The notes under the pieces are model-generated. The model saw nothing but the letters and a program-made list of their open reading frames with translations, did no database searches and had not been told where the DNA came from. A program made the position numbers and the translations under genes. Below, in pieces: positions 28,009 through 58,234 of a stretch of DNA of 64,000 nt. Within the stretch, counting starts at the first letter, position 1. Each line of letters opens with the position of its first letter. This stretch comes from Terebella lapidaria (taxonomy: Eukaryota; Annelida; Polychaeta; Terebellida; Terebellidae): positions 37,620,157 through 37,684,156 of the forward strand of contig OX424562.1 in NCBI GenBank assembly GCA_949152475.1, given 5' to 3'.

Positions 28009-31000
28009 ATTTAGCTGCCGTTGGGTGTGACCAGAAGACAGTAGATTACATGGGAGAGAATCTGGTCATTCGCTACAATGTCATATCCAATCTCGAGACG
28101 TATGGTGTGACTTATGACGCCGAACTGTTCCTGGAAAACTCCGGGTCACAACCCATCCCTGACGGCTCGACACCATGGCAACTGTACTTTTGCCATGTGC
28201 GGCTGATAGACCCTGAGAATATATTGGATGGGGGCAGTGACTTCGGGAATAGCGGACTGCGGGTGTACCATGTAGCCGGCTGTCTCCACAGGATCGAGCC
28301 CACGCCAGATTTCCCAGGACTCGAGGCTGGCTCCAGCTTGAGGTTGGAGATTCTAGGCCAATACTGGAATATTGTTCGGACTGACAACATGCCCAACTGG
28401 TACGTCACTGACGCCACCAGCCAGCCAAGGGTCCTGCAGAGCACCGCCGGCGAAAATATCGACTTTGTGGGTGAGAATATTTGAAAACAAACACGAATTA
28501 ACGGTATTCTCTACAGAAGGGTGGGGTTCTGGAGGTCCGTACAAATGTATTATTGGCAAAACATTGCTATCACAAAAGATATCCGCAGCATCGTAGAGAC
28601 AATGTACATTGTATGATCCTTGACATCTCTTCTACAAATAAACATTTTTTTGCAGTAGTTTGGAGAAACAAGTAGTTAGGATGGGTATTGGGGCTTCTGC
28701 CGGATGGCGCTATGATGGTCTATATGACTTCCATTTGGCTCCCGTCTTTTCAAGCCAGAATGTAATTTCCCTAACCTCCATTCTATACTCATGCAGCAGT
28801 GTTCAATTCCAATTTCTCAAAAGAAAAAAAAACCGCCAGTACGAAAGTGATTCCATGGAAATCATAATATGTCTCCGTTTAGCATCCAAAGCAATTGCCA
28901 CAGCTTCACGGATGGATGGTCATGTAGGAATATACAATATAATGCGCATAGTGTGACATATGGGGTGTTTTATTGCCGTAGTACCACATGATTCTCGGTC
29001 CCGTAACTGACTTGCCCTTGTACACCGGACACTGTTGTGATTCAGGCTCGTACACAGCTGTTTCAGGCTCGTACACTGTTGTGTTTCAGGATCGTACGAT
29101 CAACCAGAGCAGTACAAGCGAACAGTGGATGACCAATACGAGCCTTACACGGCCGAGCAGAGATACAACATGCGGGACTATGACCTAATGCCCGGGCCAT
29201 TCGACTTCAATGTATAGTACTTCGTCAGCTAATCAGGCGCTACCACCACTATTGATCTTACATAATCAAGGGCTACTATTGATTATACATAATTATAAAG
29301 GCTAATATTGACCCTACATCATCAGGGACTACTATCGATTATACATAATTAGAGAGCTACTTTTGATTATACAATGCATATTCCGGAGCTACTATTGATT
29401 ATACAAAACCAAGACTACAATATTGAGTACACATGATTAAATATTAGTTTGTTATATAGATACATGTTGTTATATAGATTACTAATATACACAATCGGAG
29501 CTACTATTGACTATACACAGTTGAAATATATGATCAAGAGTTACATATGTAATCCACTATTGATTTTACATGATCTGGGACTAATATTGATTAAACATAG
29601 TCGGGGGTTATTATGTTGATTATATACGTAATCCACTGAAAGCATCTCTCTAAATTTCGGGTAGACACTATATGGGACATTTAGATCCAATGCGATGTGA
29701 ACAATTTTTGTTTACCCGTCGTGTGCCTGTGCAGGTAATCCCAACCCCGGTCGAACAAGACTTGGACACCACCCGCACTATGGACGTGAGCAGCGGGGAC
29801 TGGGTCGTGGTAGACGGGACAGGGGGCTCACTCGTCAACGAGTCCCTATATCTGGCCGGCAAGTTTTGTTTTTTTTCCTCAGTCTCCTCATTCACTAGAT
29901 TTTTTTCCATGGGTTCTCTTTCGGTTGATCCCCTGCCATGTTCTTATTATTCCATGAAGAGAATATACAGCCATAATTTCGTTTCCTTTAGACAAGCTCA
30001 GCACGATTGTGGTGGATCCCTCCATAGCCCCGTCAAGTCACTTCATCTCACTCAATCTGGACAGCTCCCTCTCGAACAACTCGGAGTACTATCACCTGAT
30101 GTCAGACACGGAGTCCGAGACAGTCACCATCACAGGCACGGATTCTGCAGGGGTGTTTTACGGGGCCCAGACTCTGTTGTCCCTGCGGGAGCCGTCTGGG
30201 CAGCTGCCTCACGGAGCCGTCACCGACTGGCCGCGCTTCCAGTACCGAGGGATGCACGCCGACGTGGCCAGACACTTTCACACCAAGCAGGACGTTCTCC
30301 AGCTGCTGGAAGTGATGGCAACTTACAAACTCAACAAGCTGCACCTGCACCTGACTGACGACGAGGGCTGGAGACTTCAGATCCCCGGCATAGAGGAACT
30401 CACCGAGGTCTGGTATCCAAAACATCTGCGTGTGACTGCTGCATGGTGTTCAAAAATTCAAAATCATCTTTCATAGCAGTTAATTTTTTTTTTCAAATAG
30501 TGACGCTGCATGACATTCCGCAAGTTTCTCGTGTTTAGGAGCTTGGCCTGCATGTTTTTCATAGGTGGGAGCCACACAGTGTCACGAGCTGAGCCAAGAC
30601 AATTGCATCCTGCCTCAGCTGGGGTCTGGTCCGCTCCCTAACAACGCAGGGACTGGGTTCTACTCCGTGGAAGACTACCGGGAGATCCTGGCGTATGCCG
30701 CGGCTAGACACATAGAAGTGCGACCCGAGTTCGACATGCCAGGCCACGGATACGCGGCCATATACGCCATGCTCGCCCGATACCGCAAGTACATTGACAC
30801 TGATCCCGTCAAGGCCACAGAGTTCCTTCTCTCGGATCCTGATGACCAATCCGAGTACCTTTCGGCCCAGTACTTCACCAACAACGCCATCAACCCTTGT
30901 GTCGACTCTGTCTACGATTTCGTAGCGCATGTGATCGCTGAAGTCAAGGCGATGCACGCAGACATCAAGCCGCTGACGACCTTCAACTTTGGCGGAGACG

Positions 31001-34000
31001 AGGTTCCGGAAGGGGCGTGGCTCAACTCGACCGCATGTCACGAGAAAGGTCTCTTCACCACGGAGCAGATCAAGGACTGGTTCATCAGGTAATATCAACT
31101 AGGTGATACAAATACAGATGTAATATTCTTTTTCATAGCTTTTTAAAAACGATGTGTATTTTGACCCCATCATCCAGGAATATTTCCCGGGTGAGCCACG
31201 AGGCCGGACTATACCTGGCGGCTTGGGAAGACGGTTATAACATGAACGCTACACACATCTTCGACCGAGATACCTTTCCCGCATCCAATGTTTACAGGTA
31301 GCCAGACGGTATAATCACACATCCAATGTGTACACTCCACAAATACTGGAGATCTACTGGTGATGGTTGTAGTCTCCGTGTAATTTATGCTGGGAATACA
31401 CCAACATTTCTTGTAACACACGTTAATGCAATGTTATAGTTCCCTTGCATTTTGCTTTTTCTCCCATATGAGTACTCAAATTGAGTGTTTTCACTCGACA
31501 GTTACTCCTGGGACAATGTCTGGGAGTGGGGAGGCGGGGAGATGGCCTACGTCTTCGCCAACGACAACTACAAGGTTCGTTATAATAGCTGGGGTGTCTG
31601 CTCCACAATCTCCCCTAGTAAATGACTCTCCAACCTAGATATCGATGGCGGGCGGTTGGTAGAGCCACGTGACACTCTGTGGTGAAAATCTGACATTGAC
31701 ACTCAAATCACGTGGCTTTATGTTAGAGTGGTGTGGCTACTCCAGGATGTTTTTTTTGGACAATTTGGGGGTTGTTTGGACACCTGAAACATGTGATATC
31801 AATACATTTATGAACCTTGATGTGATATGTATGCGCTCAAATCCAGCCATATTCACGTAGTTATGAGCGCAAGTTCATAAATGCATATTATGTGCTGTTA
31901 CAACTTTCCAATATGTCCCAAAGGGTGCCACACGCTCCATATATAAGGAAGGGTCATGGTATGACATCCTAGCCAGACCACTCTAAAATGCCGGATTTTC
32001 ACCACAGGGTGTCATGTGGCTGTGCTAACCACCCACCATCAATATCTAGGTTGGAGAGTCATTTGATGGGGTTAACTTCAGTGACAATGCCTCGCTTACC
32101 AATATCTGAGTGAATATTTCGAGTACTTCGTGACAGAAACCTAGCTGTAGACACATTTATACCAAGATTGTTCTCCTCCCTATGTGTTACATGGGATATC
32201 TTACTCCTTGTAAAATCAAACATTACAACATCATTCAGAGAAACATAAGCAACAACCCATGGGGCTGAAGCGGTTACTTGACATGATTTATCAGTATCTC
32301 TGGGGCATTCTGGAACGTTATGTTACCAAATACTATGGTAACCTGAAAGAGCATTTATCATCCCCAAGGTAATCCTATCCCACGCCACGCACCTGTATTA
32401 CGACCACCCACAAGAGCCCGACCCAGAGGAGCGGGGGTACTACTGGGCCACGAGGGTCACCCTCGCCCGCCAGTCCTTCGGCTACATGCCTGATGACGTC
32501 TACAGCAACATCGTGGAGGACAGGATGGGACACCCCCTCGACAAGGGAATCTGTGACGTCACTATCAGCTGCACGCCTCTACATCCGGGCATGGAGGGGA
32601 ACATTGTTGGTAGGTGGAATGTCTCATTCTTTGGGTGGAGTTCCCAAATCATGGGCTACTGTGCGGTACGACACTTAAGTGTTTTGTATCGGTCAAATCT
32701 ATCATAAAGTTTGAACATTAACATAATTGTTTCGTGCTTGTATTTGTTTTTAATGTTTTCGTACTTGTATTTGTTTTTAAATAATCATTAATAGATTCCC
32801 TAGTGATTGTCAAAACGCTTAATTAATCAAGCCACTATAGATATCACAATTCAAAGTTCAGATTTCAGATGTTAGGTTATTTACAATTCGTGCATAAAAT
32901 GGACGTAACTACCGGTATTCCAATATAGTACTTTTTTTGTCAGAGCTTAAACATTTTTATGCACTGAGCGAAAAATTCCATACTTTAGTATCTGTTTTTC
33001 TTGCGGCCATAACTCACACCTTTGTACACTTATTCACTGATGAAAGCTGCACTTATATGTATATCACACAATGTCCCTCCAGCGGCTCGGCACTTGTGTC
33101 AGTTTTGTGATAACGAGAGTTGTTTGTACCGACAACGAACCTATGAAGCGCAATAACCAAACGACGAGCGGCTGCTGTTCCATGAAAACTCATCCATAGA
33201 TCTCAGCATCACTTGTGGTTGATAGCGATAGTCGAAGTATGCATGGTCTCCTATTTCGGCCTTTTTCCCATATTAAAGAGCGTTTAATTTCGCTGGTGAA
33301 TCTCTGGAGGGTCATTGTAATAGACCGGTAACAGTGGTATTATTATGTACACTCATACGCACATACCATATTGGAGATCCCCGGATTGAAGAGTTCAAAT
33401 GAAGCGAAACCTTGTGATTAATGTAATAGATTAAGATACATGAGGTCCAAGGGGGGAGGAGGGGTCAAATTAATAAAAAGTCAACGTCTATCAAGAGTTC
33501 GTTTGAAACCAATGCATATTCATGCTTGTGGTACGATTATTATAAGAATGATAACACCCTCTGAGCTTAATTTGTCACATTAGGAGTAGGCTGTTGTGAC
33601 CATCACCATGGCAACGCTGTGCATAGCAACCCTGTTAGCTAATTTCCTGGAGGATCGCATTTGTTTTTAGCTCTGATACAATGATACAAGTGCATGATGA
33701 GGCATTTGTTCTCTATCTGCTGAGATCTTCCAAATGACGAAGGTGTCGTCTCGGGGCACATAGTTTGAAAAGTTCTCTGGGTGTTCCAATCAATGGTGAG
33801 ACTTAACGTAGTCCGCTACAAACATGGAGGTAACGGAGAGTCAAAATATAAAAGTCATTTTTTGAATATTATCTCTTCAAAATGACATTATTTCATAGAG
33901 TAAATGATCAGCATCCTAATACTGAAAATAAAATAGGGGGTCACCGTGCTCGTTTCTTCTACATATTCGATCAAAATCACACATATTTACCTAAAATGAC

Positions 34001-35890
34001 ATAAATTCTGGCATTTCTGCGCATTTTTTCGTCCATATTCACATCTTGCATCGTGTTTTCCATGAGATACGGTGACCGCCTATTTTCTTTCCAGTTTTAG
34101 GATGCTGAACAGTTACGCTATAACATATATCATTTTGAATCTCTAGATTATGTTGACACGTTTATTTATTTTAAAAAAAACTCTTTGACCCCCTCCACTC
34201 ACTGTTTGTAGCTTACTACGTTAAGACCACAACACACAACAACATCTAGAAAGCTTTTGGCTTCTGATGTACCTGAGAAGGCCCAAACTCCACACCATAT
34301 AGGGCTTCGCTCAATGCCACTTTCCAACATATTCCTAGACTAGATCCACCCATATTGTGTGCATTCTAAATGTTTTTCGCTCATTTACCCAGGTATGCAA
34401 GGCCAAGTGTGGAGCGAGACGATCCGTACGTCCGAGCAACTTCACTACATGGTGTTCCCGAGGCTGCTGACGCTGGCCGAGCGAGCCTGGCACAAGGCCG
34501 ACTGGGAGTCAGTCCAGGATCCAGCACAACGCGACCAACAGCGCACAGAGGACTGGCAGCTCTTCGCTAACGCTCTCGGGCACAAGGAGCTGGCCAGACT
34601 GGACGGGATGGGGATCAAATACGCCCTCTCACCCCCTGGCGCAAGGTTCGTATGTCGTGTCCTCATGCTCAATGTCATACTGTAACGTGGAGATGGTCGC
34701 CAAAATTGGTTCAATACCCGAAGGATTTTTTTCAATTTTTTTCTGCTTTCAATTCACATACCAATTCACATATCTGTAGCCTATTTGTTGGCTTGCGATT
34801 AACGAATGTTGTCTACATTTCGAGCACACTGTGAGATTCCAGACATCATATATAAGTCAATCAATCGGGTTCGTCAGGAATTCATTAAGGACACCATCCA
34901 CGTGCATAGATGCTTTGCTGTGACTATAGGACACCAGCGAATATCAACACCTTTTGAAAAAAATCCAGATAAACTTTTGTCATCATTATAATGATATACC
35001 CTGCATGTATTTTACAGGCAATTAACCAGACTAAAATAGGAGAATATCTATTACGTTAAGCAGAAATACATGAGAGAAATTATGTATTTCTGATTAAGTG
35101 TAGTTTTGCATGGTTTCGCTAATTCGTTTCGGAAAACGAATACCGAGAACACACTGAACGTAGCTCTGTTCTGACTAATGACACTGGCCAGTTACTGTCC
35201 CCGGCAGACTGACGGACGACCACCGTGTGGAGGTCCGGGCTGAGTTCCCAGGACTGAAGGTCCAGTACAGTCAGGACAGCGGGAACACGTGGGCCGACCA
35301 CAGCGATAACATCGTCATGAACCCTGGCAGTCTACAGCTTGCCACCAGGTCAGTCAGTGTCAGCCTGGCACCGACACGCAAACATTCGTGTCAGCCTACT
35401 GGTGTCATGTACCGACTATCCGTCGAGAAATTGTATTGATGTCGATAGAATTGAACCATCATTTGATAGACTGAGATTCAGAGGTTTTGGTGACAAACAA
35501 CTTACTCAATATGTCCTGTTTGATTGTTCGATTGAAGTGTATGTTCATTCGTTTTCATTGCTAATTAAACATGTCGGCCCAAGTAGAATGTGTTGCTCTT
35601 TCTTCTATTACGGTAGAATTAAACAAGTGACAGACGGATTAAAGGGCATTCATTTAGTTGACGAGTTATATTAGAGTGCAGCTTACCCTAGTTGGGCCAA
35701 TAATGTCTGTCGCCAGAACCTTTCTTGGTGTAAATTCTATCCGTGTTGCAGATCCGCGGACGGCGCACGGACGAGCCGACTCAGCTATCTGACCGTGCCC
35801 GAGCCAGTCAGCGCCGGAGAATCCAGTCACATGATACACCGCCTGCCAATCGTAGTCCCCGCCCTCATCCTGGCATCACTGTACAAATGA
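28009..35890 (+). CDS. Beta-hexosaminidase, chitobiase type (GH20), single-unit copy
   Basis: Eleven exons: 28009-28470, 29090-29211, 29735-29858, 29992-30407, 30565-31088, 31178-31297, 31502-31574, 32369-32609, 34393-34645, 35208-35348 and 35752-35890. All are in frame and give 871 residues. The start exon with the signal sequence was not found; the first acceptor is phase 1. Domains: CHB_HEX carbohydrate-binding (about 10-154), GH20b (about 190-290), GH20 catalytic barrel (about 300-770), and an Ig-like CHB_HEX_C domain (about 780-826). Catalytic Asp520-Glu521 lie in FNFGGDEVPEG; RGMHADVARHF, QGQVWSE and YYDHP are also kept. It should release terminal GlcNAc from chitooligosaccharides (EC 3.2.1.52). 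The C-terminus, LPIVVPALILASLYK, is hydrophobic, suggesting a GPI signal or membrane anchor. The intron after 29858 has a GC donor. Confidence 0.9.
29215..29640. repeat. Degenerate tandem repeat of about 33 bp in intron 2
   Basis: The phrase GAGCTACTATTGATTATACA and variants recur ten or more times with uneven spacing. Low complexity, no coding sense. Confidence 0.7.
31620..32064. mobile_element. MITE with inverted repeats of about 70 bp
   Basis: Both ends read AAATGACTCTCCAACCTAGA inward. The arms continue through GGTTGGTAGAGCCACGTGAC and CTGTGGTGAAAATC on the left and their close counterparts on the right. It lies in intron 7 of the single-unit hexosaminidase gene, is 445 bp long and has no coding capacity. 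Confidence 0.8.
33807..34220. mobile_element. TTAA-flanked MITE (copy 1)
   Basis: A 414-bp element with ends CGTAGTCCGCTACAAACA and, reversed, CGTAGTAAGCTACAAACA. TTAA stands on each side (33803-33806 and 34221-34224). It is closely related to 39266-39681. TTAA targets are used by piggyBac-type elements. It lies in intron 8 of the (+) hexosaminidase gene. Confidence 0.85.
35062..35092. repeat. Inverted repeat with CAGAAATACAT arms
   Basis: Exact 11-bp arms CAGAAATACAT and ATGTATTTCTG surround a loop of about 9 bp. The arm sequence is the same as in the palindrome at 15301-15340. Confidence 0.7.
35576..35698. mobile_element. Short hAT-like MITE (copy 1)
   Basis: About 123 bp with ends GGCCCAAGTAG and CTAGTTGGGCC, in the last intron of the (+) hexosaminidase gene. 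The flanks AACATGTC and ATAATGTC could be a decayed 8-bp target duplication. A related copy is at 41447-41574; both contain GACAGACGGATTAAA or a close variant. Confidence 0.65.
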
Positions 35891-37843: not shown

Positions 37844-40800
37844 TCAGAAAAGCAATATTTTTACATGAACATAACCAATGACAACAAACAACCAGAAGTT
37901 CATCGTCAGTGTGGCACTGCCATTGTCAACAGTCGGTAACAACTGGTCGCGATTTGACGTCACAATCGGTCTGGTAGTTTTGACGTCATCCTTCTGTGAC
38001 GTCACAATCATTACAGTTGTTGGAATGATTCGTGCGCGTGTACTGCGTTTTATTGTCGTGCTGGATTTTTCATATGTGAAGGCTTCGTTGGTTGTGATCT
38101 GTTCTTCCACAGTTGAATGGTGCGCATCAGTTGTCGGCTGCTTTTCTGATGCAGTCGTTTTCCTTGGTTTTATTGTTGTAGCCTCTGGACTGGATGTTGT
38201 CTTTCCCCTTGTGGTTGGTTTTGCATAGGTGGTATATTTTTTTGTCGTCATTGATTGCGACGTTGTCGATGTCGCTTTCGTTGTCTGTGTTGTGCTTGGA
38301 ATGGCGGATGTTGTTGCACGTTCGGTTGAGGTTGGCTGCTCGGTGGATGTGGTGTCAGGAAGTGACGTCACAGCAGGTTGTTCTGTAGTGGTTGGTAGCT
38401 CCAGCTCTGTGGTGACGTTGATGACCGCCGCACGGCTCGCTCGTGCTCTGTCTGCTGATCTGTGGAAACAATATTCCAACTTACAGCAGCTGGTGTCTCA
38501 ATGGAACAATCCTCAAATATGTATTGGAAATGTCATTAACAGTAGGACATTGTCGTTATCAGTTAGGTTCATTACTGATTCTTGGCTTAGGGTGTAAGAG
38601 TTATAGTCTGACTAGTAAGAAAAAAACCGACAAAAGAAGCGTAGGCCTACAATGTGACGAGGTGCAGGGAGCCGGCCGGTACTCTAGTACCCTGTGTGTA
38701 GTTACGCCAGGTCTGGCCCGAATCTATGCTGTACTGCACATCCAAACCCGGGTACTCCGTCTTCACCAACAAGAAATTCTGTGGTGTCACTCTGTGAACA
38801 TTCAGCCCAAACACGAGTTCAAATGGAGTCTTTCATACTACATGTTGTTGGTACTACTAATCCGAAACAAACTTTTGATGGAGTCCCCAGGTAAGAAAAA
38901 TGAATGTTGTTTGTAATAGTGTTCACACAATTGGTACTTTTGTGGTGTCAATACAACCTTGCGCCCGGGGGTGAGAGGGCATATTTGACCCCCATCCCGT
39001 CCAATCTTTCCAGCTCTTTGTGTCCGAGAGTGTTAGCAAAGAGTTGCCAGTCCTCTGTGCGCTGTGGGTCTCGCTGTGCTGGGTCCTGGACTGACTCCCA
39101 GTCGGCCTTGTGCCAGGCTCGCTCGGCCAGCGCCAGCAGCCTCGGGTACACCATGTAGTGTAGCTGCTCGGACAGGTGTACAGACTCGCACCACAATTGG
39201 CCCTGGATACCTATAGAGAGTCCATATCACTTGTGGATGATAGTGTATCAAGACTCTTGGTTTAACGTAGTCCGCTACGAACATAGAGGTAATGAAAAGT
39301 CAAAATTTAAAAGTTATATCTTGAATATTATCTCTTCAAAATAACATATTTTATAGAGTAACTGATCAGCATTCTAATACTGAAAAGAAAATAGGGGGTC
39401 ACCGTGCTGGTTTCTTCGACATATTCGATCAAAAATCACTAACTTTTACTAAAATGACTTAATTTATGGTATTTTTTCACATTTGTTTGCCCATATTCAC
39501 ATCTTGCATCTTGTTTTCCAAGAGAACGGATACGGTGACCCCCTATTTTCTTTTCAGTTTTAGGATTCTCAACAGTTTCTCTATAAAATATGTCATTTTG
39601 AAGCTCTAGATTTTGTTAATACAGTCATTTATTTGGAAAAACTCTTTGACGCCCTTCCCTCACTGTTTGGAGCGGACTACCTTAAACTGTTTACTGGAAG
39701 GCAATTGATATCCTCCTTCTATTCTTGGACACTGGGCAATGAGTCATAATAAACCTACCAATGATGTTGTCCACCTTGGTTGGGTCCAGCGGAGTACAGC
39801 CGAAGTCTAAGCAGACACCCATCCGGGTGAGAGGGTTTCCCATCACGGTCTCCTCGATGTTGTTATAGATGTCGTCAGGCATGTAGCCGAAAGACTTTCG
39901 AGCTGGAACCATCCTCGTAGCCCAGTAGAAACCTGCACAAACACGTGATATCTCGTCTTGGAACTTTTGATTGTTCTTACTTTTAAAATAAGACTTCATG
40001 GGCCAGTGCCCCATATACTACTTGGATGGACCTTTGCTGATTGTGAGTTATTTCGATGAGCTGATTTCTCTATCTTCTCGATTCAAGAGCGAGATCAGAT
40101 TTTCAGTTTGTTAATGCTATGACATTCACCTCTTTCCTCGGGGTCAGGCTCGTGAGGGAAGTCGTAGTATAAATGTGTGGCATGAGACAGGATCACCTGA
40201 AACAGCACCGTGTACTGTAAAAAGACTAATTTTGGTGGCTATTGAATTTGGCAGTTGTGATTCCTACGTAATTTGACGAAGATTTAACTTGGCGGTTTCA
40301 AAACTACATATATTTTTAAACATATATCTAGTTAACTTGGCGTTTTGCCCCTACCGCCAAATAAATCGTCCACCAAAATTAGTAGTTTTACAGTATGTGG
40401 TAGAAAATGCAGTGCTGGCCAAATCCTAGCCCGTTAAAGGTTATATGCTGATGGAGCAATCGATGAGTTAATACACTTCCTCAATTCCATTTGATGTTCA
40501 TATCATTAAACTGAAAGTATTGAATCAGATCTCTAACGCCATTCTCTTTACTTTATAGTCCTCGTTAGCGAATACATATGCCATATCGCCGCCTCCCCAC
40601 TCCCACACATTATCCCAGGCGTAGCTGTAGATGTTAGGAGAAGGCAGGACACCCCGAGGGACGATATCAGTGGGTGTCAAGCTGTACCCGTCCTCCCACG
40701 CCGACAGGTCCAGGTCAGCCTCATACGCTATCATCGCCACATTCCGCACAAATGATAACTTGACCTCAGCTGTCGTCATCAAACCTGAAGTAAAACCCAG

Positions 40801-43800
40801 TGGATCTTCTAGTTGTCTTCTACCTCATCAGGGTTACATATGATATAAATTGACGATAAGAACGCAACCACTGAATCATTTGTACAGGACTCGTCACCTT
40901 GACCTAAAATGTCTAGGAGGTATTATGAATTTATGTATGTACAACTATTCCTAACTCAATCATCCATTTATTTATATGTTTTGATATTCATAGGCCTGTC
41001 AATGGTCAATTGCATTGTTGAAGTTAATAAAGGAAACCTTTCTGGCGACAGGCTGGAGAGTTGAGCCACACCCCCTCCGGTACTTCATCCCCGCCAAAAT
41101 TGAAGGTCCTCAGGGGCTGAATGTCCGCGTGCATCAACTAAATCGTGCCATAATCAAATGTATGTAACGGCGGCAGAGCTGGTACAAGATTTTGAAGATA
41201 CCAATAGAAAACCCAATATCTGAAACTGTTTATGCCGTACACCAGATGAAAGAGACAGTGGAAGCTAAGACAAAAAGATAATGATACTAGTAGCTAGGGA
41301 CACTTGAAAAAACGACATTTCTGGCTCGGAACGTATGACAAGGCAGCATTGCCACTTCACATGATAATATATCTAGTTAAGACACTTGAAAAGGATCAAA
41401 TGCTACCCAAGACACTGAAACAATACGTAACTCTCTTTTAATAATCTGCCCATGTAGCGCAGCTTACTATTTCTTCTAAATTCAATTAAGATTAAAAATG
41501 TGTCAGACGGATTAAATATGGTATACATTCAGTGGGTGAGTAGTATTAACAGAGTAAGGTGCGCTACTTGGGCCGAATAATCTTGCTAGTCATGAAATTA
41601 TACTGAGTAGAATGATTAATTCGATACAAACAACTCTGGATATAAGCTGCACTCACTACAACCATTGTGAGTGGATTATTATACCAATGTTAATGATCGG
41701 AAAGTATGAACAATAATCGCGCAACTGCATGTGTTTAGAAAGTGCTGCTGCTGGGTATTCGAGTCGTCTAGCTACTTTACCTGTAAAGCGTTGATGACGT
41801 GTCGGATGAAGTTGTAAGTGCTGTCAACACACGGGTTGATGACGTTGCTGGTGTAGAACTGGGCAGATAGGTACTCGGACGTGTCCAAGGGGTCACTCAG
41901 CAGGTACTCGTAGGCTTTCTGTGGGTCACTGTCTGAGTACCGCCTCATACGAGCCAGCATGGCCTGGATAGCAGCATGAGAGTGTGCAGGCATGTCTACT
42001 TCGGGGATCACCTGAAATCAGAATTTCCCCTTCTCGTTGATTGGTCTGAACTTGCCATAAAATGAACACCCATTGGTGTGGCTTCCATTGACATTCTTGG
42101 ACACTACACAGTTGATTCAGGTTGAAACCACTATGGGATGCCTCACCTGGATGTGTCTGGTTTGGGCAAAGGCCAGAATCTCTCTGTACTCGGCGACTGT
42201 GTAAAAACCTGAGGCAGTGTTGTTGACAGTCGGAGCAGCCCCGAACTGAGGCATGAGGCAGCGGTCATGGGATAGGTCATGACATTGGTGAGCTCCAACC
42301 TGAGTTGAATCATGATATTTACCAATGACATAAGATAAGTAGAACTTTTAAAATAAAATATTCAAAAACTTACAAGTTGAAAAAATAATATCAATGTCAG
42401 AAGTGTTCTTTTCCCTGTGCCACTGAAATCATCTAGGAACAATCACACATCAATGGTCAGACCTCGGTGAGTTCTTCTATGCCGGGGATCTGAAGTCTCC
42501 AGCCCTCGTCGTCAGTCAGGTGCAGGTGCAGCTTGTTGAGTTTGTAAGTTGCCATCACTTCAAGCAGCCGGAGCACGTCCTGCTTGCTGTGGAAGTGTCT
42601 GGCCACGTCGGCGTGCATCCCTCGGTACTGGAAGCGTGGCCAGTCGGTGACGGCTCCGTGAGGCAGCTGTCCAGATGGCTCCCACAGAGACAATAGGGTC
42701 TGCGCTCCGTAAAACCCCCCTGCAGAATTCGTGCCCTTGATGGCGACTGTCTCCGACTCGGTGTCTGACACAAGACTGTAATAGCTAGATTGGGGCTGGT
42801 CAAAGTCCAGGTCCATGGAGATGTATTTGCTGGGAGGCTTCGAGCCTGGATTCACCACTATCGATCCCAGCTTGTCTACAAGGGGAACATGTCTAAGGTG
42901 TTATAACCTGGAAAACTTTAGACATTACTTAGTAAATACTATGTTGGAGATCTTGCTCAAGGAAAGATTGAAGACCAAAGAAGTCGAGTTTCAAATCGCA
43001 AGTGAATAAGCATTTGCTTGGATTCCCCATAATCTGATCTACCTCATTATTCAACTTAAACTATGCAAACAAGAACACAATCTACCAGCCAGATACTGAG
43101 CCTCGTTAGCAAAGAAGCCGATAAGATCAACAACGACCCATTCTGGTCCACCGACGTTCATAGTGCGTTCGAGATCCAGGAGCACCTGCTGAGGTGTGGG
43201 GACCACGTGACCAGAGATAGGACCCAAGTCCTCGTAGTCCCTCGTGTCATAGCGCTGTTCAGCCGTGTAAGGGTTGTACTGGTCGTTCTCATACCGCTTC
43301 CACTTCTCCGGGCTGTCGTACGGACCTGATGCAATCAGACATGTTCGGCATAATAAATCCTAAGGCAGTTTACATTGCTCTGAAGATTGTTCACATTGCT
43401 TTTGATGATTGTGGTTTGACCCCGTTACAGAGGCCAATGATCGAATTAGAGTAGGTTTTTCGAAAGTGACTGAGGGAAATCAATGCGTTTCCCTATTCGA
43501 TATATGCGACTCACCCACAAAGTCAATGTTTTGACTGGCGGTGCTCTGCAGGACCCTTGGCTGGCTGGTGACGTCAGTGACGTACCAGTTGGGCATGTTG
43601 TCACTCCGGGCAATGTTCCAGAATTTACCCAGGATCTCCAGCCTCAGACTGGAGCCAGCCTCGAGTCCCGGGAAAACTGGTGTGGGCTCGATCCTGTGTA
43701 GACAGCCATCCACATGGTACACCCGCAGTCCGCTATCCCCGAGGTCACTGCCTCCATCCAATATGTTCTCAGGGTCTATCAGCCGCACATGGCAAAAATA

Positions 43801-46800
43801 CATTTGCCATGGTGTTAAGCCGTCAGGAATGGGTTCAGACCCTGAATTATCTAAAAAGAGTTCAGAATCATGTGTCTCTCCGTTCGTGCCGAAGTTAGAT
43901 AGCACGTTATATCGAATGACAAGATTTTCTCCCATGTAGTCTATGAGGTCCTGGTCACGTTGCTTCGTTGTCTGTTCCACTGTTACTGGTTGTGGTGATG
44001 TTGTTGTCTGTTTCCTCGTTGTCTGTTTAGTACTCTGAGAAATAGGCTCCTCTGTGCTTGGGATTTCATGCTGTGACGTCACAACAGATTGTTGTGTCGT
44101 GGTTGGCAGCTCAAACTCTGTAGTGACGTTGATCACTGATGCACGACTTTTCCGGAATCCATCTGCCGAGCTGTAGAAACATTAATTCCTCTTAGAAATT
44201 GCAAGTCCTATGTTTTCAAATAATATCAGCAGCTAGGATATTCAAGGGTTCTACTCAAGTTCCACATACAGTGTGACGAGGTGCAGGGGGCCGGCCGGTA
44301 CTCTAGTACCCTGTGTGTAGTTACGCCAGGTCTGGCCCGAATCTATGCTGTACTGCACATCCAAACCCGGGTACTCCGTTTTCACCAACAGGTAGTTTTG
44401 TGGTGTCACTCTGTGAACACTCACCACAATTACAAGTTGTACTGGTGTCTTTCATACTCGAATCAAAGAGTGTAAAATCAATTCTTTGCTCGAATATTGG
44501 TACTCTTGATCCGATACAACCATTTGGTGGTAGTTTATCCTTTATGCAATGACAGCAATCATTATGGAAATTTGTTCAACCTGTCATGTTTATGTTGTCT
44601 GTAATGTTTGTGCCTTTAGTGTGTTTGTTGTGTCAATACTACCTTGCGCCTGGGGGAGAGAGGGCATATTTGATCCCCAACCCGTCCAATCTGGGCAGTT
44701 CTTTGTGTCCGAGAGCATTAGCAAAAAGCTGCCAGTCCTCTTTGCGCTGTGGGTCTCGCTGCTCTGGATCCTGGACTGACTCCCAGTCGGCCTTGTGCCA
44801 GGCTCGCTCGGCCAGCGCCAGCAGCCTCGGGTAAACCATGTAGTGTAGCTGCTCGGACAGGTGTACAGACTCGCACCACAATTGGCCCTGGATACCTATA
44901 GACAGTCAATATCACTTGTGGATACATGGTGTCAAGACTCTTGGTTTAAACTGTTTGCTGAAGGCTCTCCTTCCATTCTAGGACAATGGAAAATAAACCT
45001 ACCAATGATGTTGTCCTCCTTGGTTGGGTCCAGCGGAGTACAGCCGAAGTCTAAGCAGACATCCATCCGGGTGAGAGGGTTTCCCATCACGGTCTCCTCG
45101 ATGTTGTTATAGATGTCGTCGGGCATGTAGCCAAAGGACTTACGAGCTGGAACCATCCTCGTGGCCCAGTAGAAACCTGCACAAACACGTGATATCTTGG
45201 TACTTTCGATTGTTCTTACTTTTACTTGGACAGACTTGCTGCTGTCCAAGTTAACTTGCTGATTTGAAGTTTGTTTTCTCTATATTCTCGATTCAAAAGC
45301 GAGATCAGATTTTTAGCTTGTTAATGCTATGACATTCACCTCTTTCCTCGGGGTCAGGCTCGTGAGGGAAGTCGTAGTATAAATGTGTAGCATGAGACAG
45401 GATCACCTGAAACAGCACCGTGTATGTGGTGGAAATCATGTGTTGTCTAAAGTCAAGCCTGTTAAAAGTTCTAGGCTGATGGAGCAATCGATAAGATAAT
45501 GTACTTCCTCAATTCCATTTGATATGACTACAATTCACATCTATTAAATCATATCTATTACCCCATTCCATTTACCTTATAGTCCTCATTGGCAAATACA
45601 TATGCCATATCGCCGCCTCCCCACTCCCAAACATTATCCCAGGCGTAGCTGTAGATGTTAGGAGAAGGCAGGACACCCCGAGGAACGATATCAGTGGGTG
45701 TCAAGCTGTACCCGTCCTCCCACGCCGACAGGTCCAGGTCAGCCTCATACGCTATCATCGCCACATTCCGCACAAATGATAACTTGACCTCAGCTGTCGT
45801 CATCAGACCTGGAGTAAAACCCAAGGGATCTTCTAGATGCTTTCTACCTCCTTCCGGTTACATACGATATAAACTGACGATAACAAAGCAACCACTGATT
45901 CATTTGTACATCTCCTAACTATGGTTGACTCATTCGTCAATTTATTTAAATATTTTTAGATTCATAGGCCTGTCAATGGCCAATTGCATTGTTGAAGTTA
46001 GAAGGAAACCTTTCTGTTGACAGGCTGGAGACTGGAGCCACACCCCTTCCGGGACTTCATCCCCGCCGAAATTGAAGGTCTTCAGGGGCTGAATGTCCGC
46101 GTGCATCAACTAAATCGTGCCATAATCAAATGTGTGTAACGGCGGCAGAGCTGGTACAAGATTTTGACGGTGAAAATAGAAAATCCTATATCGGCCTCAT
46201 TGAATGCAGACAGTGTGCAAATAAAACTGTACTGCTGTACACCAAATGAAAAGGACAGTGGAAGCTGGGACAAAAAGCAAATGATAGCTAGCACCACTTG
46301 ACAAAATGAATAATCTTACTAGTCATGAAATTCAAATCAAAAGGGTTTATCCGATACAAACAACTCTGGATACGACCTCCATTTAATACATTCATCATAC
46401 CAATGATAATATTCCGATAACACAACAGTATACCACGTAGACACACAGACAGTACTGCTAGGTATTCGGGTCGTTTACTCTACCTGTAAAGCGTTGATGA
46501 CGTGTCGGATGAAGTTGTAAGTGCTGTCAACACATGGGTTGATGACGTTACTGGTGTAGAACTGGGCAGATAGGTACTCGGACGTGTCCAAGGGGTCACT
46601 CAGCAGGTACTCGTAGGCTTTCTGTGGGTCACTGTCTGAGTACCGCCTCATGCGAGCCAGCATGGCCTGGATAGCAGCATGAGAGTGTGCAGGCATGTCT
46701 ATCTCCGGGATCACCTGAAATCAGAATTTCCCCATCTCGTTGATTGGTCTGAACTTTTCATAAAATGAACACCCATTGGTGTGGCTTCCTTTGACATTCA

Positions 46801-49800
46801 TGGACACTACACAGTTGATTTAGGTTGAAACCACTGTGGGGTGCCTCACCTCGATGTGTCTGGTTTGGGCAAAGGCCAGAATCTCTCTGTACTCAGTGAC
46901 TGTGTAGAAACCTGAGGCGGTGTTGTTGACAGTCGGAGCAGCCCCGAACTGAGGCATGAGGCAGAGGTCATGGGATAGGTCATGACATTGGTGAGCTCCA
47001 ACCTGAGTTGAACCACGATATTTACCAATGACATGAGATAAGTAGAACTTTCACAATAAAATATTCAAAAGCTTACAAGTTGAAAATATAATATCAATGT
47101 CAGAATTGTTCTTTTCCCTGTGCCACTGAAATCATCTAGGAACAATCACACATCAATGGTCAGACCTCGGTGAGTTCTTCTATGCCGGGGATCTGAAGTC
47201 TCCAGCCCTCGTCGTCAGTCAGGTGCAGGTGCAGCTTGTTGAGTTTGTAAGTTGCCATCACTTCCAGCAGCTGGAGCACGTCCTGCTTGCTGTGAAAGTG
47301 TCTGGCCACGTCGGCGTGCATCCCTCGGTACTGGAAGCGTGGCCAGTCGGTGACGGCTCCGTGAGGCAGCTGTCCAGACGGCTCCCGCAGAGATAACAGC
47401 GTCTGCGCTCCGTAAAACCCCCCTGCAGAATTCGTGCCCTTGATGGCGACTGTCTCCGACTCGGTGTCTGACACAAGACTGTAATAGCTAGATTGGGGCT
47501 GGTCAAAGTCTAGGTCCATGGAGATGTATTTGCTGGGAGGCATCGAGCCTGGATCAACAACTATGGTTCCAAGCTTGTCTACAAGGGAAACATATCTGAA
47601 GAGTAATATTCTGCGAAACCACTTTAGACATTACTTAGTAAATACTGTATTAGAGGAGATCTTGCTCGAGAAAAGAATGAAAACCAGTCAGGTTTCAAAC
47701 CGCAAGTGAATATGTGTTTGCTTGGATTCTTCCTAATCTGATCCACCTGATTATATTACTTCAACTACGCAAACAAGAACAGAATCTACCAGCCAGATAC
47801 TGAGCCTCGTTAGCAAAGAAGCCGACAAGATCGACGACGACCCATTGTGGTCCACCGACGTTCATAGTGCTTTCGAGATCCAGGAGCACCTGCTGAGGTG
47901 TGGGGACCACGTGACCAGGGATAGGACCCACGTCCTCGTAGTCCCTTGTGTCGTAGCGCTGTTCAGCCGTGTAAGGGTTGTACTGGTCGTTCTCATACCG
48001 CTTCCACTTCTCCGGGCTGTCGTACGGACCTGATGCAATCACACATGTTCAGCATAATAAATCCTAAAGCAGTTCAAATTATTCCTTTTGATGATTGTGG
48101 TTCGACCCCGTTACAGAGGTCAATGACCGAATTAGCGTAGGTAATTTCGAAGGTGACTGAGGTAAATCAATGCGTTTTCATATTCCATATGTGTGACTCA
48201 CCCACAAAGTCAATGTTTTGGCTGGCGGTGCTCTGCAGGACCCTTGGCTGGCTGGTGGCGTCAGTGACGTACCAGTTGGGCATGTTGTCACTCCGGGCAA
48301 TATTCCAGTATTTACCCAGGATCTCCAGCCTCAGACTGGAGCCAGCCTCGAGCCCCGGGAAAACTGGTGTGGGCTCGATCCTGTGTAGACAGCCATCCAC
48401 ATGGTACACCCGCAGTCCGCTATCCCCGAGGTTACTGCCCCCATCCAATATGTTCTCAGGGTCTATCAGCCGCACATGGCAAAAATACAGTTGCCATGGT
48501 GTTAAGCCGTCAGGAATATGCTCAGACCCTGAATTATCTAAAAAGAGTTCAGAATCATGTGTCTCTCCGTTCGTGCCGAAGTTAGATAGCACGTTATATC
48601 GAATGACAAGATTTTCTCCCATGTAGTCTATGAGATCCTGGTCACGTTGTTTCGTTGTCTGTTCCAATGTTACTGGTTGTGATGATGTCGTTTTTTGTTT
48701 TGTCATTCTCTGTTTAGTACTCTGAGAAGTAGGCTCCTCTGTGCTTCGGATTTCATGCTGTGACGTCACAACAGACTGCAGTGTCGTGGTTGGCAGCTCC
48801 AACTCTGTAGTGACGTTGATCACTGATGCACGACTTTTCCGTACTCTGTCTGCCGAGCTGTAGAGACATTGATTTATCTGAGAAATTGCAAGTATTATGT
48901 TTTTGTATAATATCAGCAGCTAGGGTATTCAAGAGTTCTACTCAAGTTCCACATACAGTGTGATGAGGTGCAGGGGGCCGGCCGGTACTCTAGTACCCTG
49001 TGTGTAGTTACGCCAGGTCTGGCCCGAATCTATGCTGTACTGTACATCCAAACCCGGGTACTCCGTCTTCACCAACAGGTAGTTCTGTGGTGTCACTCTG
49101 TGAACACTCACCACAATTACAAGTTGTACTGGTGTCTTTCACACTCGAATCAAAGAGTGTAAAATCAATTTTTTGCTCGAATACTGGTACTCTTGATCTG
49201 AAACAACCTTTTGGTGGTAGTTTTTACTTAATGCAATGATAGCAATCATTATGGAAATTTGTTCAACCTGTTATGTTTATGTTTTCTGTAATGTTTGTGC
49301 CTTTGATATGTTTGTGGTGTCTATACTACCTTGCGCCTGGGGGTGAGAGGGCATATTTGATCCCCAACCCGTCCAATCTGGCCAGTTCGTTGTGTCCGAG
49401 AGCATTAGCAAAACGCTGCCAGTCCTCTGTGCGCTGTGGGTCTCGCTGCTCTGGATCCTGGACTGACTCCCAGTCGGCCTTGTGCCAGGCTCGCTCGGCC
49501 AGCGCCAGCAGCCTCGGGTATACCATGTAGTGTAGCTGCTCGGACAGGTGTACAGACTCGCACCACAATTGGCCCTGGATACCTATAGAGAGTCCATATC
49601 ACTTGTGGATACATGGTGTCAAGACTCTTGGTTTAAACTGTTTGCTGGAAGGCTCTCCTTCCATTCTTGGACAATGGAAAATAAACCTACCAATGATGTT
49701 GTCCTCCTTGGTTGGGTCCAGTGGAGTACAGCCGATGTCTAAGCAGACATCCATCCGGGTGAGAGGGTTTCCCATCACGGTCTCCTCGATGTTGTTATAG

Positions 49801-52800
49801 ATGTCGTCAGGCATAAAGCCAAAGGACTTACGAGCTGGAACCATCCTCGTGGCCCAGTAGAAACCTGCACAAACACGTGATATCTCATCTTGGAACTTTC
49901 GATTGTTCTTGCTTTTACTTGGACAGACTTGCTGCTGTCCAAGTTTACTTGCTGATTTGAAGTTTCTTTTCTCTATATTCTCGATTCAAAAGCGAGATCA
50001 GATTTTTAGCTTGTTAATGCTATGACATTCACCTCTTTCCTCGGGGTCAGGCTCGTGAGGGAAGTCGTAGTATAAATGTGTGGCATGAGACAGGATCACC
50101 TGAAACAATACCGTGTATGTGGTGGAAAATCATGTGTTGTCTAAAGTCAAGCCTGTTAAAAGTTCTAGGCTGATAGAGCAATCGATAAGATAATGTACTT
50201 CCTCAATTCCATTTGATATGAGTACAGTTCACATGTATTGAATCATATCATATCTATTACCTCATTCCATTTACCTTATAGTCCTCATTGGCAAATACAT
50301 ATGCCATATCGCCGCCTCCCCACTCCCACACATTATCCCAGGCGTAGCTGTAGATGTTAGGAGAAGGCAGGACACCCCGAGGGACGATATCAGTGGGTGT
50401 CAAGCTGTACCCGTCCTCCCACGCCGACAGGTCCAGGTCAGCCTCGTATGCTATCATCGCCACATTCCGCACAAACGACAACTTGACCTCAGCTGTCGTC
50501 ATCAGACCTGAAGTAAAACCCAAGGGATCTTCTAGATGCTTTCTACCTCCTTCGGGTTACATACGATATAAACTGACGATAACAAAGCAACCACTGATTC
50601 ATTTGTACATCTCCTAACTATGGTTGACTCATTCATCAATTTATTTAAATATTTTGAGATTCATAGGCCTGTCAATGGCCAATTGCATTGTTGAAGTTAG
50701 AAAGAAACCTTTCTGTTGACAGGCTGGAGACTGGAGCCACACCCCTTCCGGGACTTCATCCCCGCCGAAATTGAAGGTCTTCAGGGGCTGAATGTCCGCG
50801 TGCATCAACTAAATCGTGCCATAATCAAATGTATGTAACGGCGGCAGAGCTGGTACAAGATTTTGACGGTGGAAATAGAAAATCCTATATCGGCGTCATT
50901 AGAGGCAGACAGTGTGCAAATAAAACTGTACTGCTGTACACCAAATGAAGCTAAGACAAAAAAAAAATGATAGATAGCACCACTTGACAAAATGACAAGC
51001 TGTATTCGAATAATCTTACTAGTCATGAAATTTAAATCAAAAGGGTTTATCAGATACAAACAACTCTGGATACGACCTCCATTTAATACATTCATCATAC
51101 CAATGATAATATTCCGATAACACAACACTATACCACGTAGACACACAGACAGTACTGCTAGGTATTCGGGTCGTTTACTCTACCTGTAAAGCGTTGATGA
51201 CGTGTCGGATGAAGTTGTAAGTGCTGTCAACACATGGGTTGATGACGTTACTGGTGTAGAACTGGGCAGATAGGTACTCGGATGTGTCCAAGGGGTCACT
51301 CAGCAGGTACTCGTAGGCTTTCTGTGGGTCACTGTCTGAGTACCGCCTCATACGAGCCAGCATGGCCTGGATAGCAGCATGAGAGTGTGCAGGCATGTCT
51401 ATCTCTGGGATCACCTGAAATCAGAATTTCCCCATCTCGTTGATTGGTCTGAACTTGCCATAAAATGAACACCCAATGGCTTGACTTTCTATGACCTTGA
51501 TGGACACTATACAGTTGATTCAGGTTGAAACCACTGTGGGATGCCTCACCTGGATGTGTCTGGTTTGGGCAAAGGCCAGAATCTCTCTGTACTCGGCGAC
51601 TGTGTAGAAACCTGAGGCAGTGTTGTTGACAGTCGGAGCAGCCCCGAACTGAGGCATGAGGCAGAGGTCATTGGACAGGTCGTGACACTGGTGAGCTCCA
51701 ACCTGAAGCGGAGGTGGTAAACAAGTGTATTATCTTATATCAATGCATGAACAGTATAAAATATTTATAGTAAAACGAAACATAAGAGTTGTAATTATCT
51801 ACAACAAACTAATGCTCAGGTATAGCAGTTGAACTCCATGTCAGCATTGTCTCCAAGTCATTCAGGCAGTACAAACACACGAATGGCCAGACCTCTGTAA
51901 GTTCTTCTATGCCGGGGATCTGGAGTCTCCAGCCCTCGTCGTCAGTCAGGTGCAGGTGCAGCTTGTTGAGTTTGTAGGTTGCCATCACTTCCAGCAGCTG
52001 GAGCACGTCCTGCTTGCTGTGAAAATGTCTGGCCACGTCGGCGTGCATCCCTCGGTACTGAAAGCGCGGCCAGTCGCTGACGACTCCGTGAGGCAGCTGC
52101 CCAGACGGCTCCCGCAGGGACAATAGTGTCTGGGCCCCATAAAAAACCCCTGCAGAATCCGTGCCCTTGATGGCGACTGTCTCTGTCTCTGTGTCTGACA
52201 CCAGACTGTAATAGCTAGATTGGGGTTGGTCAAAGTCTATGTCCATGGAGATGTATTTGCTGGAAGGCATCAAGCCTGGATTCACCACTATCGATCCCAG
52301 CTTGTCTACAGGGGAAACATGTTTAAAGTGTAATAACCTGGAAAACTCCTTTAGGCATTATTTAGTAAATACTATGTTGGAGATCTTGCTCAAGGAAAGA
52401 CTGAAGACCAAAATTCGCTTTCAATTCGCAAGTGAATATACATTTGCTTGGATTCCCCATAATCTGATCTACCTGATTATTCAACTTAAACTTTTCAAAC
52501 AAAAACATAATCTACCAGCCAGATACTGAGCCTCGTTAGCGAAGAGGCCGATGAGATCAACGATGACCCATTGTGGTCCACCGACGTTCATAGTGCTTTC
52601 GAGATCCAGGAGCACCTGCTGAGGTGTGGGGACCACGTGACCAGAGATAGGACCCAAGTCCTCGTAGTCCCTTGTGTCGTAGCGCTGTTCAGCCGTGTAA
52701 GGGTTGTACTGGTCGTTCTCATACCGCTTCCACTTCTCCGGGCTGTCGTACGGACCTGATGCAATCACACATGTTCAGCATAATAAATCCTAAAGCTGTT

Positions 52801-53375
52801 CACATTATTGCTTTTGATGATTGTGGTTTGACCCCGTTACGAATTAGAATAGGTTTACTGACAGCAACTGAGGTAAATTAAATGCGTTTTCATATTCCAT
52901 ATGTGTGACTCACCCACAAAATCAATGTTTTGACTGGCGGTGCTCTGCAGGACCCTTGGCTGGCTGGTGGCGTCAGTGACGTACCAGTTGGGCATGTTGT
53001 CACTCCGGGCAATATTCCAGTATTTACCCAGGATCTCCAGCCTCAGACTGGAGCCAGCCTCGAGCCCCGGGAAAACTGGTGTGGGCTCGATCCTGTGTAG
53101 ACAGCCGTCCACATGGTACGCCCGCAGTCCGCTATCCCCGAGGTCACTGCCCCCATCCAATATATTCTCAGGGTCTATCAGGCGCACGTGACAGAAATAC
53201 AGTTGCCATGGTGTTAAGCCGCCAGGGATGGGTTCAGACCCTGAATTATCTAAAAAGAGTTCAGCGTCATGTGTCTCTCCGTTTGTGCCAAAGTTGGATA
53301 GCACGTTATATCGAATAATGAGGTTCTCTCCCATGTAGTCTATGAGTTCCTGGTCACATCGCGACAAAGTCAAGC
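37844..53375 (-). CDS. Giant hexosaminidase with three tandem chitobiase (GH20) units, Thr-rich linkers and tail
   Basis: Thirty-four exons, from 53375-52914 to the terminal exon 38459-37844, splice in frame into about 2,800 residues. Each of the three units has CHB_HEX, GH20b, GH20 barrel and CHB_HEX_C domains; the exon lists are given under the three unit entries. Every unit keeps FNFGGDEVPEG; the Asp-Glu pairs fall near residues 517/518, 1404/1405 and 2291/2292. Unit 1 runs into unit 2 through exon 48857-48202, and unit 2 into unit 3 through 44170-43515. No stop intervenes and all phases match. The terminal exon adds about 150 Thr/Ser-rich residues (probable O-glycosylation) and the hydrophobic end FWLFVVIGYVHVKILLF, perhaps a GPI or membrane anchor. 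The likely role is cell-surface or extracellular release of GlcNAc from chitin fragments. The alternative, three separate genes, would need start and stop signals that I do not see. Confidence 0.82.
39266..39681. mobile_element. TTAA-flanked MITE (copy 2) with an empty site in sister units
   Basis: A 416-bp element with ends CGTAGTCCGCTACGAACA and GGAGCGGACTACC, flanked by TTAA at 39262-39265 and 39682-39685. The matching introns of units 1 and 2 read CTTGGTTTAAACTGTTTGCT (near 49627 and 44939) with a single TTAA, which is the expected uninserted site. It is related to 33807-34220. Confidence 0.92.
41447..41574. mobile_element. Short hAT-like MITE (copy 2) with 8-bp target duplication
   Basis: About 128 bp with inverted ends GCCCATGTAGCGCAGC and, reversed, GGCCCAAGTAGCGCAC. 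AATAATCT stands immediately left of the element and again just right of it. The matching intron of unit 2 (near 46308) has a single GAATAATCTTACTAGTCATG, supporting an 8-bp duplication, the size made by hAT transposases. Extra unexplained sequence of about 120 bp lies left of it in unit 3. Confidence 0.75.
44270..48857 (-). other. Unit 2 of the three-unit hexosaminidase, with linker exon
   Basis: Exons 48857-48202 (linker plus CHB_HEX, 656 bp), 48029-47790, 47578-47166, 47002-46850, 46714-46484, 46109-46010, 45808-45576, 45406-45340, 45176-45003, 44895-44643 and 44410-44270. All but the first have the same lengths as in unit 1. The linker begins SADRVRKSRASVINVTTE and is rich in Thr, Ser, Gln and Lys before DQDLIDYMGENL. 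Catalytic residues are intact. Confidence 0.85.
48957..53375 (-). other. Unit 1 of the three-unit hexosaminidase
   Basis: Exons 53375-52914, 52755-52516, 52305-51893, 51702-51550, 51414-51184, 50808-50709, 50507-50275, 50099-50033, 49864-49691, 49582-49330 and 49097-48957. Lengths are 462, 240, 413, 153, 231, 100, 233, 67, 174, 253 and 141. It begins after a phase-1 acceptor with LTLSRCDQELIDYMGENL and so lacks the Thr-rich linker of the later units. Catalytic Asp-Glu, RGMHADVARHF, QGQLWCES and YPRLLALAERAWH are present. The last exon ends LHLITL and joins the next linker exon in phase 2. Confidence 0.85.
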
Positions 53376-53573
53376 CTGCAAGTTCCATAAATTGAGCCAA
53401 ATATCAAAACACATTTTGTATCATCATACATGTAGATACATGGATTTTTATTTTACGTGAATTTGAGTTAAAATTGATTGACAGCAAATAAATAATGAAC
53501 ATCAATATAAGCAAGGTTAAGTATTCCTTGTGTAATTATTGTTACGTTCACAGATAAACAACAATTTGTGAAC

Positions 53574-57597: not shown

Positions 57598-58234
57598 GGG
57601 CGGGTTGCATCGAGGAGGGCTGTTAGTGGAAGGAATTGGCATTGTTCTCATGTATTATCAAGTTCGAAGTCCTGCCACGACTTGAAAAATAGGTCAAGGT
57701 CACCCATCATCGAACTTGTCCGAGATCTGCTCATGATGCACCTCCGGTATGATTTTGGCGGTATTTCGTTAAAAACTTTGTAAGTTATCGCGTTCACAAG
57801 GTACAAAGTCCTGTTTTCATGTATTGTCAAGTTCGAAGTCCTGCCACGACCTGAAAAATAGGTCAAGGTCACCCATCATCGAACTTGTCCGAGATCTGCT
57901 CATGATGCACCTCTGGTATGATTTTGGCGGTATTTCGATAAAAACTTTGTAAGTTATCGCGTTCACAAGGTACAAAGTCCTGTTTTCATGTATTGTCAAG
58001 TTCGAAGTCCTGCCACGACCTGAAAAATAGGTCAAGGTCACCCATCATCGAACTTGTCCGAGATCTGTTCATGATGCACCTCTGGTATGATTTTGGCGGT
58101 ATTTCGTTAAAAACTTTGTAAGTTATCGCGTTCACAAGAAATTGTTGACGGCCGGACGGCCGGACAGACGGACGGACGGACAGACAGACGGACACGCCAA
58201 TCTAATAGGCGGGTTGGTTGCACGCAACCCGCCC
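57598..58234 (+). mobile_element. Second HINE/pearl-like element
   Basis: It starts GGGCGGGTTGC and ends in the hairpin GGCGGGTTG-GTTGCA-CGCAACCCGCC. Between lie three tandem units of 169 bp (landmark TGTATT at 57651, 57820 and 57989) and a GGAC/GGACGGAC microsatellite at 58150-58195. The order of parts is the same as in 23474-24909, but the sequence family differs. Each core unit contains AGGTCAAGGTCA. Frames on the minus strand that repeat across the units are by-products. Confidence 0.72.

Follow-up and report, generated by a model that had tools for sequence, protein, structure and literature searches.

On contig OX424562.1 of the polychaete Terebella lapidaria, a stretch of 64,000 nucleotides (positions 37,620,157 to 37,684,156; hereafter the window) carries on its minus strand what we read, with a probability of about 0.7, as one annelid gene for a secreted, probably glycosylphosphatidylinositol (GPI)-anchored, three-headed exo-β-N-acetylhexosaminidase of the bacterial-chitobiase type. 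The gene is a real, uncommon variant and not a new kind of enzyme, with two-headed relatives among predicted mollusc proteins.

Gene model and domain architecture

The model was rebuilt from genomic DNA alone, by way of splice signals and the repeat itself, and begins inside the gene, at exon A. It has 34 exons (53375–37844): unit 1 spans 53375–48957, unit 2 48857–44270, unit 3 44170–38651, and the terminal exon 38459–37844, with the stop codon TGA at 37846–37844. An AG acceptor precedes every exon (34 of 34), and a GT donor follows all except the stop-bearing last one. Exons B–K have identical lengths and phases across the three units; exon A, 462 bp long in unit 1, reaches 656 bp in units 2 and 3, where it includes the linker. 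The spliced total of 8,403 nucleotides gives 2,800 codons without a stop, the other two frames holding 108 and 141. These 34 phase-consistent exons bear out the claim of the first-pass annotation that three full units lie in one chain encoded by one gene, at least as a prediction, and the coordinates, phases and size (about 2,800 residues) that it had given match the rebuilt model.

Each unit matches PF03173, PF02838, PF00728 and PF03174 above the curated cut-offs, in the order CHB_HEX, GH20b, GH20, CHB_HEX_C, with PF00728 scoring 278–285 bits per unit; GH20b is thereby present in each, and no G5 match was found at E 0.001 in any of the three. By its domains, the predicted chain belongs to GH20 of the bacterial-chitobiase type with CHB_HEX domains. 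The catalytic motif FNFGGDEVPEG is found in all three units (Table 1), and alignment to Serratia marcescens chitobiase (1QBA) shows nine active-site positions conserved in all three, which we take to be Arg349, Asp539, Glu540, Trp616, Trp639, Tyr669, Asp671, Trp685, and Trp737. Motif and alignment agree with the earlier report of three intact Asp-Glu catalytic pairs. With units 2 and 3 as queries, the best solved relatives were 9JOQ (E ~1e-177) and 1QBA (E 1e-141 and 6e-140), which resemble these two units over nearly their whole length and share the active-site residues of each unit. Both are single-unit proteins, of 858 (1QBA) and 833 (9JOQ) residues, whereas the worm chain has three units.

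Joints between the units

The units are joined within exons. Exon K ends two bases into a codon at 48957 in unit 1 and at 44270 in unit 2, and after introns of 99 bp the linker exons beginning at 48857 and 44170 each complete the split codon, in frame, as Leu; this arrangement had been proposed at first pass and is confirmed at both joints. In unit 1 the completed Leu is residue 822, and the CHB_HEX_C match covers residues 756–832 (profile 1–76 of 76); since it runs past Leu 822, the domain ends about 10 residues inside the linker exon. About 55 Thr-rich linker residues follow (40% Ser+Thr), and the next CHB_HEX continues in the same exon with no intron between. Over the 214-nucleotide linker part one frame of three is open in both copies, and because no stop codon is present, no unit can end inside a linker exon. 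The initial proposal that neither stops nor start exons lie between the units therefore stands for stops in the linker exons; as to starts, linker exon 1 holds one in-frame Met, and start exons between the units were not searched for systematically.

Neither AATAAA nor ATTAAA occurs on the coding strand of the two 99-bp introns, and the first such hexamer past the stop is at 37722, 122 bases beyond it. Basic residues (RKSR, TKQR) lie near the linker ends. When the genome was searched with the intron and linker together (318 bases), only the best candidates being scored, two places came up, both in the three-unit gene, at 100% and 90% (linker exon 2). Furthermore, the linkers are 64–65% identical to the first ~208 nucleotides of the terminal exon, as predicted by a tail-to-head fusion in which a Thr-rich tail was joined to exon A of the next copy.

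Table 1. Features of the three-unit gene and of the rest of the window (positions within the window).
Feature	Position	Strand	Remarks
Weak candidate first exon (MFIIYLLSINFNSNS)	53457..53502	-	Phase at its end fits exon A; unproven
Unit 1, exons A–K (11)	48957..53375	-	CHB_HEX, GH20b, GH20, most of CHB_HEX_C; FNFGGDEVPEG at residue 511
Linker exon 1, 656 bp	48202..48857	-	Unit 1 CHB_HEX_C end, Thr-rich linker, unit 2 CHB_HEX start
Unit 2 remainder, exons B–K	44270..48029	-	Catalytic motif at residue 1398
Linker exon 2, 656 bp	43515..44170	-	Unit 2 CHB_HEX_C end, Thr-rich linker, unit 3 CHB_HEX start
Unit 3 remainder, exons B–K	38651..43325	-	Catalytic motif at residue 2285
Terminal exon	37844..38459	-	Unit 3 CHB_HEX_C end, Ser/Thr-rich stalk, hydrophobic C-terminus NFWLFVVIGYVHVKILLF, stop TGA
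Single-unit GH20 gene	28009..35890	+	From first recognised exon; hydrophobic tail of its own at the C-terminus; closest to the three units in the tree
Tandem array	6069-6768		21-bp unit x33
Tandem array	17762-18480		G-rich units, strong GC skew
Tandem array	23525-24439		134-bp unit x6.7
Tandem array	57643-58138		169-bp unit x2.9

The two ends of the chain

After unit 3, a mucin-like stretch some 160 residues long (40% Ser+Thr) forms a stalk that leads to the C-terminus NFWLFVVIGYVHVKILLF, which is mostly hydrophobic, follows NGSA and a short spacer, and reaches a mean hydropathy of 2.23 over its best 14 residues. The tail looks GPI-signal-like and suggests a putative anchor.

At the other end, the exon A acceptor leaves two bases of a codon in the three-unit gene and in the single-unit neighbour alike. 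Reading by eye, we found in a paralogue elsewhere in the genome (L022, contig C1) a putative signal-peptide exon of matching phase about 140 bases before exon A, and the weak candidate at 53502–53457 has phase and layout as in this first exon, again by eye. A blastn comparison of two upstream regions in search of a first exon gave nothing convincing (best E 0.16).

Divergence of the units and relatives in the worm genome

The units are 95–96% identical, with 32 (units 1–2), 43 (1–3), and 32 (2–3) residue differences over 815, and their DNA is 94% identical over 5.3 kb. Ratios of nonsynonymous to synonymous divergence (dN/dS) are 0.124, 0.142, and 0.159 for the pairs 1–2, 1–3, and 2–3 (dS 0.138, 0.172, and 0.118), so all three units appear to be under purifying selection. 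The introns form a mosaic: introns E–I are 95–98% identical between units 1 and 2; intron C is 95% identical between units 2 and 3, that of unit 1 being only 50–56% identical to theirs; and several unit 3 introns deviate in length and sequence. We infer that this is the expected trace of unequal crossing-over or gene conversion, and that the array probably arose recently in the worm's lineage, by tandem duplication of a stalked, anchored single-unit gene.

A single-unit gene lies beside the array on the opposite strand, and it too ends in a hydrophobic tail. Its exons A, C, and J share 84–95% DNA identity with the array, whereas from exon D to early G, which form one exon without the array introns D, E, and F, its protein is only 64% identical; this uneven, exon-wise identity suggests gene conversion. 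A repeat, 85% identical and partly palindromic, is found at 39262–39685 (unit 3 intron I–J) and at 33803–34224 (the neighbour's matching intron). We considered it as a marker of common descent and dropped it, as the copies have opposite relative orientation, for which reason we take it for a dispersed element.

Our tree holds 72 unit sequences, from a chosen set of 43 of the 127 listed database proteins plus the three units, the neighbour and five paralogues from the worm's own genome, the paralogue and neighbour rows being assembled piecewise from matches. The three units fall together (100/100), joined next by the neighbour (100/99) and, moving outward, by two contig C1 paralogues (100/94, 99/84), Capitella (96/84), and the brittle star Amphiura (99/99). 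The three contig C12 paralogues group elsewhere, with Lamellibrachia and Paralvinella. Because the sampled molluscan units fall in other clades, the three-unit array is best seen as a separate, recent event. We reject an origin of the array from the two-unit proteins of molluscs, described below, on the strength of this tree, in which the window's units group with neighbour, paralogues, Capitella, and Amphiura.

Elsewhere in the genome, contig C13 has two sets of partial GH20 matches (L018, L019; 5785269–5786171 and 5793696–5794530), 8.4 kb apart on the same strand, of sequence far from the array. Contigs C386 and C365 (30 kb; L001, L003) hold divergent GH20 with most of the family matched in one stretch and 26–28% identity to unit 1 where aligned, possibly from associated microbes.

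Multi-unit GH20 chains in other animals

A search of 5.8 billion proteins with the full three-unit protein (candidates of 0.55–1.75 times the query length) returned 43 proteins, of which local alignment of the catalytic core assigned 36 to two units, one to three, five to one, and one to no match. The two-unit proteins comprise 34 from molluscs, one coral model (P0017), and one without a name (P0022). Another search, with 1,500 residues as the query, gave, among the best 120 of 2,577 matches, at least 6 further two-unit proteins, Lingula (P0036) included. All of these multi-unit proteins are gene predictions, some from partial models. The first-pass annotation had taken GH20 enzymes to be single-unit proteins as a rule, which these counts do not support for animals, and the search that it proposed, for repeated GH20 domains in one chain, thus finds two-unit chains common among predicted mollusc proteins and a single chain of three. 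That chain, from the clam Mya arenaria, also qualifies the statement that no three-unit animal form had been described: a predicted one exists, its first unit being without the catalytic Asp. In the open-access literature searched, no account of an animal GH20 protein with two or three units in one chain came up.

The molluscan two-unit proteins (e.g., Haliotis rufescens LOC124131226, 1,757 amino acids (aa), and Pecten maximus LOC117315681, 1,732 aa, both predictions) resemble the worm chain in having CHB_HEX, GH20b, GH20, and CHB_HEX_C, with two catalytic cores head to tail. Most of those examined by eye have a hydrophobic start, and many a hydrophobic C-terminal tail. Their linkers, in contrast, are roughly 10–20 residues long in most of those examined, against about 55 Thr-rich residues in the worm, and for most members of the tree the first and second units belong to different clades, whereas the worm's three units form a single one. 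The Mya chain (LOC128206309, P0001; 2,448 aa) has three GH20 cores in one predicted protein, as in the worm. Unlike the complete worm units, however, its first unit is missing the CHB_HEX start (by eye) and carries Ser at the position of the catalytic Asp, and its units fall in the tree with second-, first-, and second-type units, as if two adjacent genes had been joined.

Among the 42 multi-unit database proteins, 11 have units lacking the Asp or the Glu (the Mya chain included, and some being partial models), and 10 keep all nine active-site residues in both units. Of the two three-unit chains compared, only the worm protein keeps the nine in every unit. The two units of Lingula anatina P0036 (1,371 aa) are nearly identical in the region compared, the first being cut short; here too a duplication may be recent, unless the likeness is an artefact of assembly or annotation.

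Related material has been reported before. "Clade B" GH20 genes, which we take to be of the chitobiase type, are listed with poor gene models for Nematostella, Trichoplax, Lottia, and Capitella in PMC2492878, and GH20 or chitobiase fragments are reported from bivalve shell proteomes in PMC5105077 and PMC11464482.

Tandem catalytic domains are also found outside animals and outside the family. StrH of Streptococcus pneumoniae is anchored to the cell wall. Its architecture is GH20-GH20-G5-G5, with tandem catalytic GH20 domains (PMC4449183); tandem GH20 is common to StrH and the worm chain, whereas StrH is bacterial, has two such domains, lacks GH20b, and carries G5. According to PMC5840672 and PMC9933517, lactase-phlorizin hydrolase has four GH1 domains, the shipworm protein MDGH1 six, and the insect protein Cht10, in D. 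citri, five GH18 domains. Like the worm chain, these secreted or anchored proteins each string several glycosidase domains together. They belong to other families, however, and by the same sources just a part of their repeats is kept or likely to be active, whereas all three worm units keep the checked residues.

Alternative explanations

That three separate tandem genes were misread as one has some points in its favour: genes are often duplicated in tandem, hexamers resembling poly(A) signals occur in some introns within units, and linker exon 1 has its in-frame Met, with start exons between units not systematically searched. The joints nevertheless make this highly improbable, and we reject it: the unit bodies are only 99 bp apart, the intervening introns are free of AATAAA and ATTAAA, and the end of one CHB_HEX_C shares an exon with the start of the next CHB_HEX, with one of three frames open across each linker. 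We give equally little credence to an assembly artefact, that is, to a collapsed or expanded repeat or to mis-joined haplotypes. A similarity of 94% over 5.3 kb could confuse an assembly, and the copy number could be off by one. Yet the units differ by a dS of 0.12–0.17, the intron C of unit 1 is only 50–56% identical to the others, several of the unit 3 introns diverge in both length and sequence, and the same frame runs through both joints; the array, moreover, lies within a 43-Mb contig, and the linker was found nowhere else among the best candidates of the genome search. Synonymous divergence, differing introns and in-frame exonic fusion together make misassembly unlikely.

The main alternative accepts the gene and changes the product. 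A single translated chain may be cut in its linkers into three enzymes, a polyprotein, so that the fusion would provide more enzyme and not a three-headed machine. The near-identity of the units is what dosage would predict, and the maturation of mammalian lactase-phlorizin hydrolase, in which domains are shed (PMC5840672), offers a precedent. Against this, the shipworm six-domain GH1 protein retains all of its domains, and in the worm a tail anchor would remain on the last head only. The linkers, furthermore, are Thr-rich and probably O-glycosylated. Linkers of this type tend to resist proteolysis. We therefore regard cleavage into single enzymes as unlikely, if clearly the rival to be reckoned with.

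Several observations do weigh against the reading as an anchored, three-headed enzyme. Because the linkers contain basic residues, proteolysis of the finished chain could separate the heads. The hydrophobic tail contains one Lys, and although a simple hydropathy cut detects such a tail in 26 of the 42 multi-unit database proteins, it is failed by the other 16, some of them partial models, and passed by 27 of 79 other matches, so this trait is suggestive only. The deep forks of the tree are weak, with 38 of 69 inner branches well supported, and since Amphiura falls within the clade of the worm's genes, that clade is not purely annelid.

Proposed mechanism

In the three-headed reading, the starting point would have been a single-unit gene whose end already comprised a Thr-rich stalk and an anchor. 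Tandem duplication and fusion would have joined the Thr-rich terminal exon of one copy to the following copy's exon A, after which the copies may have been kept alike by unequal crossing-over or gene conversion. Each head would remove terminal N-acetylglucosamine (or N-acetylgalactosamine) by substrate-assisted catalysis. With only 32–43 differences over 815 residues and nine shared active-site residues, the three heads should catalyse the same reaction, and because they are almost identical, the gain would lie in valency and dosage and not in a series of different steps. The serial processing of chitin fragments suggested at first pass is weakened by this likeness, and we reject a series run by different heads, all heads having the same active-site residues. 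Three equal heads on O-glycosylated linkers and one anchor could instead pack catalytic sites more densely and bind with higher avidity on the surface of an epithelium, for example that of the gut, and there finish the breakdown of chitin fragments or glycans to the monosaccharide.

Other features of the window and the genome

Besides the two GH20 genes, the window has several long tandem arrays (Table 1). Contig C438 (15,973 bp) carries mitochondrial genes, and its COX1 marks the genome as that of an annelid: the best match, at 88% identity, is Pilargis wolfi, and among the best 120 of 7,999 matches all those with names are annelids as far as P0190 (one cluster bears the label Metazoa), with gastropods setting in from P0192. 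By our reading of the frames, the gene order ND4L-ND4 ... ND1-ND3-ND2-COX1-COX2 lies on one strand, which is the arrangement usual in annelids. We assume that the nuclear contigs belong to the same animal. On contig C417 (61 kb), at 44633–46450 (L010, L011), lies a second COX1-like gene, interrupted and with in-frame TGA codons, perhaps from the mitochondrial genome of another organism in the sample.

Implications

A bolder claim, to which we would give slightly less than an even chance, is that this is the first known animal chain with three fully equipped GH20 sites, a surface-anchored, mucin-linked and multivalent exo-glycosidase, arisen independently of the molluscan two-unit proteins, in an array that is still expanding and contracting by unequal crossing-over so that the number of heads may vary between individuals. 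If this is true, multi-heading would be a solution that marine animals have evolved more than once. That animals gain from linking glycosidases is indicated by lactase and by the shipworm enzyme with its six domains, the start of the fusion being obscured where the repeats are old. Here, with young repeats and intact linker exons, one could test directly how a multi-enzyme chain is born, how gene conversion maintains it and what multivalency is worth. The finding further draws attention to a large group of molluscan two-unit chitobiases that have apparently not been characterised, several of them with one seemingly inactive unit.

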